From positions 4,120,095-4,159,517 of the forward strand of contig NZ_MQWA01000001.1 of NCBI RefSeq assembly GCF_002954445.1: 39,423 nt of DNA, read 5' to 3'. Source of the DNA: Rubritalea profundi. Lineage in GTDB: Bacteria > Verrucomicrobiota > Verrucomicrobiia > Verrucomicrobiales > Akkermansiaceae. Shown piece by piece: positions 33,198 through 36,200 of the stretch. Numbering within the stretch: the first letter of the stretch is position 1; the number at the start of each line of letters is the position of its first letter. The translations under genes were made by a program, and so were the position numbers. The notes beneath the pieces were generated by a model. That model worked only from the letters and a program-made list of their open reading frames with translations. It was not told the DNA's origin and did not search any database.

Positions 33198-34265
33198 ATG
33201 AATAAAATCCAAATCGCCGGCTTCACAGCTCTCACTTTACTCGGTTCTCTGAGCGCCATCCAGGCGGCGGAAGCCACTACTGACCCAGTCGGTTATATGA
33301 GTACTCCATGCCCATTAGGTTCAGACACCCTAGTCACCGTCCCCTTCGCTGGCGAACTAGCTTATCCTGGAGCTGTATTAGGCACGCCAATACAGATTGA
33401 TGAGACACTTACAATTGATGTAAGTGGCACACCTTTTATAGCTGACGAATACAACACACTTTACATGCTGCGCGTCACTAGTGGAGCATCTGAAGGTGAT
33501 GTTTTTCAGATCACAGGCACGACTGCTTCTTCAATCGATATAGACCTCAATGGAGCTACACCAACCATCGTAGATACTACAACATTCAGAATTGTTAAAT
33601 TTTGGACCCTATCCACTCTATTCCCACCAGCAACGCAAACAACAGTTGACCCCGCAGCCAGTGCTTTCGCTACTCTAAATCACACACTTATTCTGTTACC
33701 AAGTAGCGGTAACGGTATTAATTTATCTTCTGGTAGCTCTCACTACATTCTATCCGGCCAATGGAATATAGTAGGAGGAGGTGACTCAAGTGATACGCTA
33801 CTCTGGCCTGGCTCTCACTTCACCATAAGACATAATGCAGGGGTGACAGTACCAACAATATACACACCAGCAGGCACCGTAGATACAGGTAAGATAATTA
33901 TTCCACTTAACTCACTTCAAGCGAGTGATCAAGACAACTACGTGTCCATACCAAGACCTATCGACATAACAATTGCGGACTTAGGCCTTACGACTACTGG
34001 TACTCCTGCTGTATTCGAGCCAAAAAATGGAGCGTTCGATTCCACTTTTGATCAAATTATTGTTTTCGATAACACTGATGAGAATCAAAATAAATCTGCA
34101 TCAGCTACATACTTTTATAACAACGATTCAAGCCAATGGGAAAAATTTGGTTCCTCCGCTGATGCAGGTACCGACATAATTCCAGCCGCGTCTGGAATCA
34201 TCATACGAAAAACAGCAAGCACTGTAGACCAAACCGTTCTCTGGACTAACACACCAACTTACTAA
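33198..34265 (+). CDS. Exported TIGR02597 family protein
   Basis: A 355-residue secreted or outer-envelope protein. Signal peptide 1-23 (FTALTLLGSLSAIQAAEA, cut after AA). It begins TDPVGYMSTPCPLGSDTLVTVPFA, the hallmark of TIGR02597, a family of unknown function typical of Verrucomicrobiota, and continues with short Thr/Ser/Gly-rich beta repeats. No catalytic residues are recognised. The PEP-CTERM gene begins 3 bases after the stop, so the two are one operon and may be delivered to the same surface structure. The C-terminus has no PEP motif. Confidence 0.8.
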   Translation: MNKIQIAGFTALTLLGSLSAIQAAEATTDPVGYMSTPCPLGSDTLVTVPFAGELAYPGAVLGTPIQIDETLTIDVSGTPFIADEYNTLYMLRVTSGASEGDVFQITGTTASSIDIDLNGATPTIVDTTTFRIVKFWTLSTLFPPATQTTVDPAASAFATLNHTLILLPSSGNGINLSSGSSHYILSGQWNIVGGGDSSDTLLWPGSHFTIRHNAGVTVPTIYTPAGTVDTGKIIIPLNSLQASDQDNYVSIPRPIDITIADLGLTTTGTPAVFEPKNGAFDSTFDQIIVFDNTDENQNKSASATYFYNNDSSQWEKFGSSADAGTDIIPAASGIIIRKTASTVDQTVLWTNTPTY

Positions 34266-34268
34266 AAA

Positions 34269-34940
34269 ATGAATAAAAATTTAATAATTACACTCGGCAT
34301 CACATGCGTGAGCCTAGCTCTACCTCAGAAATCAGAGGCCGCAACACTGAACTTTAGTTTAGGACAAATGTGGGATAGCAGCAACGTTCTAATCCCTGAA
34401 AACACAGTAGGAATTCTAGTTGCAGACATAACTGGCTCAGGTTTTGGCAGCATGGAAACGGACTTATTCAATTTTGATCTCAATTCGACAATTGACGTTA
34501 CTGGTGGAGGCTCTCAAACTCTCATTGGAACTGACTTTGAGGTTCTATCAATCCTCTCAGCCGATAGTAACAACGCCTTTCTCACCCGCTCCGTTAGCGG
34601 GATTGCATACGATGATGGACTAGGTGCTGGTGATAATTTAGCCTTCATCTGGCTTCCTGGACTAACCTCTACGGGAGATTCCATTACTGGTGGTCAATCA
34701 TTCGGACTAATAACTGGACTTACAGGCGCACAAAACGGTTCAGGGACTGATGATTTCATAATACCAGGAAGTCCATCAGACACTGTTACTTTCAGCTTCT
34801 TTTCCACCAACATTGGGGGTGGACTGGTCCCTATTGTAGATTTCACTGCAGACTTAAACATCGCAGCAATCCCAGAGCCAACGAGCATCGCTCTTCTTGG
34901 ACTTGGTTCCGTAGCACTTCTTCTTCGCCGCCGTCGCTAG
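34269..34940 (+). CDS. PEP-CTERM sorting domain protein
   Basis: A 223-residue secreted protein: a signal peptide (hydrophobic about 5-20, cut near KSEA), a beta-rich Gly/Ser/Thr/Asp body, and a PEP-CTERM anchor at 202-223 (PEPTSIALLGLGSVALLLRRRR: PEP motif, hydrophobic helix, Arg cluster). Such proteins are processed by exosortase and usually go to the outer surface or exopolysaccharide. No exosortase lies in the window. ATG start 3 bases after the upstream gene's stop. The intrinsic terminator at 34975 ends the transcript. Confidence 0.92.
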   Translation: MNKNLIITLGITCVSLALPQKSEAATLNFSLGQMWDSSNVLIPENTVGILVADITGSGFGSMETDLFNFDLNSTIDVTGGGSQTLIGTDFEVLSILSADSNNAFLTRSVSGIAYDDGLGAGDNLAFIWLPGLTSTGDSITGGQSFGLITGLTGAQNGSGTDDFIIPGSPSDTVTFSFFSTNIGGGLVPIVDFTADLNIAAIPEPTSIALLGLGSVALLLRRRR

Positions 34941-34974: not shown

Positions 34975-35011
34975 AAAAGCCTTCATCCTTCACAGGATGA
35001 AGGCTTTTTTT
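34975..35011 (+). terminator. Strong intrinsic terminator
   Basis: A 12-bp perfect stem AGCCTTCATCCT / AGGATGAAGGCT with loop TCAC, flanked by A and T runs. It ends the PEP-CTERM operon. Confidence 0.95.
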
Positions 35012-35016
35012 GTCTC

Positions 35017-35192
35017 TGGAGTGCTGTGGCTCGACACAGCTCTGCGGCAGGCGCGGCTTGACGCCCGCGGTCGGCCAGCCACCAAGAAACCTCCATCCTC
35101 AAAAGCAACTCCAATCAACCCAACAGCAGCTCCGCACCGCATGCGTCAAGCCACAGCCATCCCCAAAAGCTGCATCAAGCCGCAGCACTCCA
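35017..35192 (+). repeat. Composite REP-like repeat, unit 1
   Basis: About 176 bases whose ends are inverted repeats: it starts TGGAGTGCTG and ends with CAGCACTCCA. Inside are several copies of a hairpin core: GCTGTGGCTCGACACAGC (35023-35040), GGCGCGGCTTGACGCC (35050-35065), and reversed copies near 35141-35157 and at 35169-35186. Unit 2 follows in the same direction after a 16-base linker. It overlaps no gene: its translated frames look like low-complexity shadow peptides. Confidence 0.8.
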
Positions 35193-35208
35193 AAAAGCCC
35201 CCTCCCTC

Positions 35209-35384
35209 TGGAGTGCTGTGGCTCGACACAGCTCTGCGGCAGGCGCGGCTTGACGCCCGCGGTCGGCCAGCCACCAAGAAACCTCCATCCTCAAAAGCAA
35301 CTCCAATCAACCCAACAGCAGCCCCGCACCCCACGCATCAAACCACAGCCATCCCCAAAAGCTGCATCAAGCCACAGCACTCCA
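35209..35384 (+). repeat. Composite REP-like repeat, unit 2
   Basis: Nearly identical to unit 1. It ends 3 bases before the stop codon of the RAYT gene on the other strand. Confidence 0.8.
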
Positions 35385-35386
35385 AA

Positions 35387-35929
35387 TTAGAAATCATCTC
35401 TTATATTGAGTCGGTCAATCTTGAAGCTATTCACCATCTCGTAAAAACTAGTGCTGGACACTCTCACAAACCATCGAGCTGAACACCATGGATAATCCGT
35501 CGCCTGGTCCACCAATCCATGGTGTACAGCGTTTTCATTCACATACTTCAACCGGGCATAGTGTGAGGTATCGTGCGTAATCTGCGTTTCCCAATAATTG
35601 TGCCAAACCCTTCTCTCCTCAACACCATCGCTCTTATTCAGAAATCTTGCTGTAGATGTGTGTAAATGGCTAATAAATTTTGAAAGGTTTCCCGCTCCCA
35701 CCTCAGGAGAAATAGCAACAAAGTGATAATGATTCGAAAGAACAGCCCACGCCTGGAGAGTCCAACCGTAATGACTCGCTAGACTCAGTAGCATCTCGTT
35801 CGTATAACGTAAACGCATTCGACTCCCTAAATAATGGCGTTTCTCATAAGTCGACCCCGTCACTATATAAATTCCAAACTCCTCAGTGAAATGTGGTGGA
35901 GCATGAGGCCAAGCAGAATTATCAGACAT
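35387..35929 (-). CDS. REP-associated tyrosine transposase (RAYT)
   Basis: A 180-residue single-domain Y1 transposase (IS200-like fold). The HUH motif is His67-Tyr68-His69 (NHYHFVA). The catalytic Tyr is probably Tyr129 in YVNENAVHHGLV, equivalent to YIHLNPVRAGL in family members. TDYPWCSA follows, as in the TnpA_REP group. RAYTs bind and nick hairpins of the repetitive extragenic palindromes that surround them and are thought to mobilise them or to be domesticated for that. Here composite repeats lie immediately 3' (units 1 and 2) and 47 bases 5' (unit 3). The ATG at 35929 is chosen as the first in-frame start before the repeat. Confidence 0.85.
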   Translation of the reverse strand: MSDNSAWPHAPPHFTEEFGIYIVTGSTYEKRHYLGSRMRLRYTNEMLLSLASHYGWTLQAWAVLSNHYHFVAISPEVGAGNLSKFISHLHTSTARFLNKSDGVEERRVWHNYWETQITHDTSHYARLKYVNENAVHHGLVDQATDYPWCSARWFVRVSSTSFYEMVNSFKIDRLNIRDDF

Positions 35930-35976
35930 AATCTACACACTAACACACAAATCAAGCCAATCCAACACCCTCCCTC

Positions 35977-36153
35977 TGGAGTGCTGTGGCTCGACACAGC
36001 TCTGCGGCAGGCGCGGCTCGACGCCCGTGGTCGGCCAGCCACCAAGAAACCTCCATCCTCAAAAGCAACTCAACCTCAACCCGACAGCAGCTCCGCACCA
36101 CATGCGTCAAGCCACAGCATCCCCAAAAAGCTGCGTCGAGCCGCAGCACTCCA
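35977..36153 (+). repeat. Composite REP-like repeat, unit 3
   Basis: Same orientation and plan as units 1 and 2, with a few substitutions and small indels. Its last hairpin is GCTGCG-TCGAGC-CGCAGC, a perfect 6-bp stem; compared with the first hairpin of unit 1 (GCTGTG-GCTCGA-CACAGC) both sides of a base pair have changed together. Confidence 0.8.
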
Positions 36154-36200
36154 GATCTCCTCACTTCACCGTACTGGAACGGCTTCAGCCCATTTTATCT

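Follow-up and report, generated by a model that had tools for sequence, protein, structure and literature searches.

The window analysed here, a stretch of 39,423 nucleotides from the genome of Rubritalea profundi, contains a minus-strand gene encoding a Y1/HUH transposase of 180 aa, which is flanked by three repeats of about 181 bp (Table 1). All three are in the + orientation, two located 3' of the gene and one 5' of it, as had been described in the first-pass annotation of this DNA. Each unit starts with TGGAGTGC and ends with GCACTCCA, and the GCACTCCA of unit 2 ends at 35384, 2 bases before the stop codon of the transposase gene (35387-35389). The inverted ends pointed out in the same annotation were recovered, since six of the eight matches to TGGA[GC]TGC in the whole window (chance mean 3.2) are the six unit ends. 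The classical 5' GT[AG]G foot is absent at these six ends, where TGGAGTGC is present instead. In gapped alignments, units 1 and 3 show 97% and 91% of identity to unit 2, respectively; the ungapped comparison gave 65% for unit 3 because of small indels.

At 34975-35008 there is a perfect inverted repeat of 15 bp with a T run after it, and unit 1 comes directly behind. This repeat is apparently the terminator of the PEP-CTERM ORF at 34269-34940. Several ORFs of the + strand run across the units (34997-35482, 35010-35390, and others), one of 161 aa overlapping the units of the window. Since their translations are those of the repeats, these ORFs were regarded as spurious and a coding role was discarded.

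Table 1. Features of the RAYT locus. Positions are those of the window; for the modules they correspond to the genome coordinate minus 4120094.
Feature	Position	Strand	Basis or remark
RAYT/TnpAREP-like Y1 transposase	35387..35929	-	ORF, Pfam, NCBIfam, PDB alignment, AF2 model, structure match
HUH motif H67-Y68-H69	codons 35723-35731	-	residues of the RAYT
Putative catalytic Tyr129 of the RAYT	codon 35543-35545	-	catalytic role suggested by the 4er8 alignment
T118 of the RAYT, aligned with R104 of E. coli TnpAREP	codon 35576-35578	-	4er8 alignment
REPIN unit 1	35014..35194	+	3' side of the RAYT, immediately preceded by a terminator-like inverted repeat
REPIN unit 2	35206..35386	+	3' side of the RAYT
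REPIN unit 3	35974..36154	+	starts 44 bp upstream of the RAYT start codon
Double-hairpin REP module, left arm of unit 1	35013..35074	+	covariance model R1, 79.6 bits
Double-hairpin REP module, right arm of unit 1	35133..35196	-	covariance model R1, 69.9 bits
Double-hairpin REP module, left arm of unit 2	35205..35266	+	covariance model R1, 79.6 bits
Double-hairpin REP module, right arm of unit 2	35325..35388	-	covariance model R1, 59.2 bits
Double-hairpin REP module, left arm of unit 3	35973..36034	+	covariance model R1, 78.8 bits
Double-hairpin REP module, right arm of unit 3	36094..36157	-	covariance model R1, 73.4 bits

Pfam assigns the protein to Y1_Tnp (2.9e-5) and shows no other domain in it. 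The NCBIfam model NF047646 (REP_Tyr_transpos) matches with an E-value of 6.4e-21 and 74.8 bits, under its cut-off of 80, and it is also matched at E<=0.001 by 48/48 subfamily members of the wider alignment. The sole PDB sequence match at E <= 0.001 is 4er8, which is TnpAREP with a REP hairpin. This entry was also the best structural match to the AF2 model of the protein, built with 48 rows (pLDDT 91.0, pTM 0.86): 160/165 residues were aligned with 4er8_A (Z 18.0, rmsd 2.7), the next match being the IS608 transposase (Z 11.1), and Foldseek ranked 4er8 first (E 5.8e-10). Hence, this RAYT is predicted to fold like the E. coli TnpAREP. Its HUH motif reads NHYH and its tyrosine motif YVNENAV; H67, H69, and Y129 are invariant in the 18-row and 48-row alignments, and the Y129 column is conserved in 85/85 sequences. 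W109 was marked as a further residue beside the HUH, Tyr129, and T118. The Y motif of class 2 is given as Y---NP in the text of the 2018 survey (PMC6006769), and the YVNENAV of the window RAYT does not match it. Across the subfamily (n=85) the residue at the P position is A in 43, P in 41, and S in 1.

Each unit is composed of two modules of about 62 nt that face inwards and are separated by a spacer of 58-59 nt. In the module, the foot TGGA[GC]TGC is joined to a hairpin whose loop is GCTYGA in most cases, and a second hairpin, similar in its loop, comes after a short linker. Each hairpin is about 16-18 nt long; REP length is given as 20-40 bp in the text of PMC3733652. The first-pass annotation had considered the unit as a composite repeat with four hairpins. 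Four hairpins do fit the sequence, two per module and with loops mostly GCTTGA/GCTCGA, but the unit is an inverted pair of REPs, that is, a REPIN. The single composite repeat was rejected because the modules are also found alone and in other pairs.

The paired changes in the stems, noticed previously between the units, hold in a wider sample. In an alignment of 27 modules of this genome, out of 39 found, 88.6% of the stem cells pair and 39 cells are changed on both sides of the stem, against a mean of 12.8 in shuffles. The covariation score is 0.371 versus 0.170 in shuffles, and none of the 500 shuffles was as high in either measure; sliding the partners by 1-3 columns lowered the score to 0.010-0.184. 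Two coarser measures were less extreme, with 7 doubly changed pairs reached by 23/500 shuffles and 16 further pair types reached by 12/500. RNAalifold alone displayed hairpin 2 in full and, instead of the modelled hairpin 1, another helix of 3 pairs. As single-stranded DNA, unit 2 folds better than shuffles (z of -7.30 for the minus strand and -3.55 for the plus strand), with energies of -46.5 kcal/mol for the minus strand versus -29.3 for the plus strand. No strand asymmetry of REPIN folding is proposed, as 6 of the ten REPINs folded favour the minus strand and 4 the plus strand.

A covariance model (R1) was built from the 27 aligned modules, whose rows match it by construction. This model revealed at least 77 modules in the 4.17-Mb genome (E <= 0.01; 150/1802 candidates scored). 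Among the 77 found, neighbouring modules form 16 inward pairs (span 159-281 bp) and 3 outward pairs, and 43/77 have no neighbour within 400 bp. None of the 27 modules tested is inside an ORF of 150 aa or more. The modules are palindromic, extragenic in many copies, and show paired stem changes. Since they are spread in the genome, form inward pairs, and none of the 27 lies in such an ORF, the unit is a dispersed REPIN-type repeat. A local duplication was rejected in view of these modules, which answers the genome-wide search proposed in the earlier annotation. Near-identical full-length copies of the unit are present only beside the RAYT gene, the next best full-length match having 71% of identity; these copies seem to stem from an amplification at this locus, added to an older family.

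Part of this family has been multiplied in another way. Pieces of a MITE are located within 260 bp of 23/77 modules found, so that the copy number is not all driven by the RAYT, and some REPINs sit inside the MITE, whose inverted ends are CACACTACACGACAA. A DDE_Tnp_1 insertion sequence (1186-1188 bp) has similar ends, CACACTACACGAGGAA; it is found in this genome at 536495-537680 and 2353350-2354537, with ends CACACTACACGA... like those of the MITEs. Among the MITE copies at loci L240-L253, several contain a REPIN, which is spread with them. Three (L238, L241, and L244) of the seven elements looked at display an exact target duplication of 9 bp. It could be argued, then, that an ordinary transposon or MITE has the repeats of the window as its ends and that the Y1 gene has no relation to it, being a chance neighbour or a passenger. 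Nevertheless, 54/77 modules are away from MITE pieces, those beside the RAYT among them, and the foot plus hairpin beside the RAYT recurs at most loci of the subfamily (see below), so this explanation appears very unlikely; the MITE has multiplied part of a REPIN family that is also found away from it.

One MITE copy of 178 bp (genome positions 1853750-1853927) carries no REPIN. Its sequence AATAACCACTCCAAGG equals the left flank of filled copies, AATAACCACTC..., followed by their right flank, ...GCACTCCAAGG, with CACTC common to both, while other filled copies have a different left border. This copy is a possible footprint of REPIN movement: CACTC is complementary to GAGTG of the foot, matching what a site-guide pairing like that of IS608 would ask. 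However, a slippage deletion between the same 5-bp repeats can give an identical product. No fixed CACTC upstream of every foot was seen by eye in the flanks listed, and the empty-site argument thus rests on this one copy.

Concerning other Y1 genes, this genome holds 19 matches to NF047646 and several other Y1-like genes, with one gene of the RAYT subfamily described here and no repeated transposase element. In a crude look, TGGA[GC]TGC was absent at six other Y1 loci of the genome (L031, L033, L034, L035, L038, and L049), where GT[AG]G was listed as a bare string.

Within the genus (12 genomes), only this genome is rich in modules (74 in that run) and only this one has a close RAYT; one other genome has 2 weak module matches, and two others have weak Y1 matches. 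Model R1 matched in 13/58 related genomes. Seventeen further RAYTs, at 41-55% of identity, were found, and most of their flanks carry, by eye, inverted hairpin repeats with the foot [GT]GA[GC]TGC and differing stems. Arrays of repeated REP units with quite different stems are located beside the RAYT at two loci of one genome (L093 and L095 of G051).

A scan of named genomes found 372 relatives, of which the best 80 were kept. Among these best 80 of 372, 57 titles name Verrucomicrobiota or its genera, and the other 23 name Kiritimatiellae, Acidobacteria, Gallionellales, Nitrosomonadales, Chlamydiae, Lentisphaerae, Schlesneria, and more. Host phyla were read from record titles, in which MAG labels may be wrong; by these titles, the subfamily is not confined to Verrucomicrobiota. 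The earlier proposal of a RAYT-REP system of a different architecture in Verrucomicrobiota is supported, with a host range that by the record titles extends to other phyla. Likewise, RAYTs had been considered there as mostly described in gammaproteobacteria, and the texts of PMC3733652 and PMC6006769 already report them outside this group.

With no foot preset, GGAGTGCG was the top 8-mer in the 450-bp flanks of the best 80 loci, being present at 65/80 (not de-duplicated), versus 10/80 in far flanks 2.3 times longer. The best 80, the 17 further RAYTs, and the window were then reduced to 85 non-redundant loci by leaving out those at 90% or more of protein identity. GA[GC]TGC joined to a hairpin occurs within 500 bp at 77/85 of these loci, and 287/393 feet have a hairpin versus 6/79 for the reversed motif. 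The strict test fails at 8/85 loci, L149 having no foot; when longer loops were allowed, foot plus hairpin was found at 82/85 loci, at 69 on both sides of the gene and at 55 with an inward pair. In a distant Y1 set, separated from the subfamily by a 100/100 branch, foot plus hairpin was present at 4/19 loci (6/18 feet; reversed 4/30). The bare six-base foot is a weak marker, as it is present at 84/85 subfamily loci, with the reversed motif at 48/85 and the distant set at 10/19. In the set of 80 best REPs, GA[GC]TGC is preceded by G in 69 and, one position further out, by T in 61; 47 of them have TTT after the hairpin. Relatives usually have, by eye, one hairpin per REP versus two in tandem in R. 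profundi. The feature common to the relatives is the GGA[GC]TGC foot and not the four hairpins.

The comparison of REP copy number with RAYT presence, also proposed in the first-pass annotation, was carried out on 239 genomes of the order by counting the pattern AAAGCGGN{4,26}CCGCASTCM. Genomes were classed as having a subfamily match (E <= 1e-40), only a weaker Y1 match (1e-15 or better), or none. At least five pattern matches were found in 60/72 genomes with a subfamily RAYT (median 10; mean of the reversed pattern 0.88), in 6/17 with only a weaker match (reversed mean 1.00), and in 13/150 with neither (median 0; reversed mean 0.47). Fisher's p for 72 versus 150 genomes is 4e-29, a value inflated by relatedness, and for this reason the states were also shuffled within the 14 genera holding both (59 versus 82 genomes). 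None of the 20,000 shuffles reached the observed difference (p = 5e-5), although REP number varies little or not at all with the RAYT in two genera (g29 and g43). Thus, the REP type is enriched in genomes with the RAYT subfamily. Twelve of the 72 genomes with the RAYT have fewer than five matches; the genome of R. profundi itself is one of them, with a single match, since the pattern does not fit its stems. Conversely, two genomes of one genus of the same family, G018 and G030, have 13 and 54 R1 modules, and no subfamily RAYT was found in these fragmented assemblies (best matches 4.2e-12 and 1.8e-16; 230 and 470 contigs, 94% and 84% complete).

These data also bear on the idea that the inverted units are mainly RNA elements, such as terminators or mRNA stabilisers, that propagate by recombination, with a RAYT domesticated for a different function. 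The 27 modules tested are outside ORFs of 150 aa or more, a hairpin followed by TTT resembles a weak terminator, and unit 1 comes after a terminator-like repeat. However, neither the inverted pairing, nor a fixed foot in several phyla, nor the association with one RAYT clade is needed for an RNA role, and we consider it improbable. Instead, the locus is probably a REPtron, formed by one Y1/HUH RAYT gene and its cognate REPINs, with a guide that would be non-canonical.

The residues W94, Q95, E100, H101, and R104 of the E. coli TnpAREP are discussed in relation to GTAG recognition in the text of PMC6006769. Counting along the 4er8 alignment, R104 falls on T118 of the window RAYT. This column is T in 78 and S in 7 members of the subfamily (n=85) versus R in 12, K in 5, S in 1, and A in 1 of the distant Y1 set (n=19). 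At five distant Y1 loci of the same order judged by eye to have GTAG-type hairpins (L106, L107, L206, L216, and L217), the Arg is kept in all. These calls are soft, as the scan for GT[AG]G plus hairpin lacked a reversed control and flagged 14/20 distant loci, most of which look like chance. In these sets, the loss of the basic residue thus coincides with the other foot, and the Thr or Ser in this column may read the new foot.

REPINs of Pseudomonas, as reportedly described by Bertels and Rainey in 2011, are inverted REP doublets that form the dispersed unit, with a low-copy RAYT. The REPINs of R. profundi have longer arms (about 62 nt, with a double hairpin) and another foot. Regarding the E. 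coli REPtron (TnpAREP, subclass 2.2, GTAG REPs), the likeness includes the predicted fold, the HUH plus one Tyr, the dispersed REPs, and one gene flanked by inverted REP pairs, three REPINs being described at the E. coli gene in the text of PMC6006769. The present system differs in its foot (GGA[GC]TGC and not GTAG), in having T118 where TnpAREP has R104, in its Y motif (NA or NP versus a strict NP), and in the two tandem hairpins per REP of R. profundi. The locus is therefore classed as a RAYT-REPIN system predicted to work like TnpAREP, from which it departs in the foot, the Y motif, and the guide-contact residue.

TIRtrons (Di Nocera 2013), in which a RAYT-like gene (TIRYT) lies between long terminal inverted repeats unrelated to REPs, must also be considered. 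As in them, the RAYT of the window is flanked by long, inverted, and partly self-complementary repeats of a moderately abundant family, and double-palindromic TIRs are mentioned in the text of PMC3733652. Nevertheless, the common motif GGGGWSAS, found in many but not all TIRtrons, is absent from 35014-36154, its nearest match being at 33840. According to the text of PMC6006769, 20/26 TIRYTs belong to subclass 2.1, which has an HTH-like C-terminal extension. Pfam shows Y1_Tnp alone here. The repeats are moreover hairpins with a fixed foot and covarying stems. Set against these text descriptions, a TIRtron is an unlikely reading of the locus, and a REPtron with its own foot is preferred.

TnpA_Y1 class 3 (Quentin 2018) also presents REP-like structures with a non-GTAG foot and has Planctomycetes and Acidobacteria among its hosts; in the text of that survey its foot is CnGA and its motif Y----Q, against GGA[GC]TGC and YVxxN[AP]V here (PMC6006769). 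IS200/IS605 elements such as IS608 have a guide beside a hairpin and a cleavage site chosen by complementarity, according to the text of PMC8266576, as CACTC/GAGTG suggest here. Unlike them, the subfamily has one gene in this genome, where several near-identical transposase copies were not found.

GTAG and CGTC REPs and TIR-flanked RAYT-like genes were described in 2013, with GTAG REPs in the verrucomicrobium O. terrae (text of PMC3733652). The text of the 2018 survey (PMC6006769) gives GT[AG]G feet in five subclasses and atypical structures in subclass 2.6 and class 3 (CnGA), and Verrucomicrobia are not named in its main text. In the texts of both works, RAYT-linked feet other than GT[AG]G are restricted to subclass 2.6 (atypical) and class 3 (CnGA), and the CGTC REPs have no dedicated transposase. 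The text of a 2021 study (PMC8266576) shows that the tetranucleotide takes part in the choice of the cleavage site in one system and that biochemical tests of RAYT-REP recognition cover only few GTAG systems; the foot of the Marinomonas Mb REP was altered there to see if the cleavage site would follow by complementarity. The available text of RepRanger 2025 (PMC12306157) contains no mention of Verrucomicrobi- or RAYT. In the text of the open literature matches listed, no report of GGA[GC]TGC as the foot of a REP was found, and the titles of eight papers that contain such a string are on unrelated subjects. By published text, then, the foot fits none of the GTAG, CGTC, subclass 2.6, or class 3 descriptions.

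The REP is thus made of the foot TGGA[GC]TGC, with its last GC as the base of the hairpin, and often has TTT after the hairpin; two inverted REPs make the REPIN, which is the dispersed unit. A mechanism can be outlined by analogy. As in the E. coli TnpAREP and IS608, the transposase would most likely bind the hairpin on single-stranded DNA. The foot could then act as a guide, defining the cleavage site by complementarity (a GGAGTG foot against a CACTCC site, within which CACTC would be cut), Tyr129 would cut the single strand, and REPINs may be moved or copied, perhaps still at present. Extended to the whole clade, the proposal is that RAYTs of several phyla have switched their guide code from GTAG to GGA[GC]TGC, with R104 replaced by Thr/Ser, that they cut the complementary CACTCC, and that an IS608-like guide rule governs the exit of REPINs from DNA and their entry into it. 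We hold this tentatively, as a possibility somewhat on the doubtful side.

This clade is well separated and combines a different foot with a matching protein change, which makes it a natural experiment on the guide code. With hairpins tagged by GGAGTGC and not by the classical GTAG, the rule by which RAYTs choose their DNA becomes testable, and Verrucomicrobiota and other phyla are brought into the study of REPIN-RAYT partnerships.
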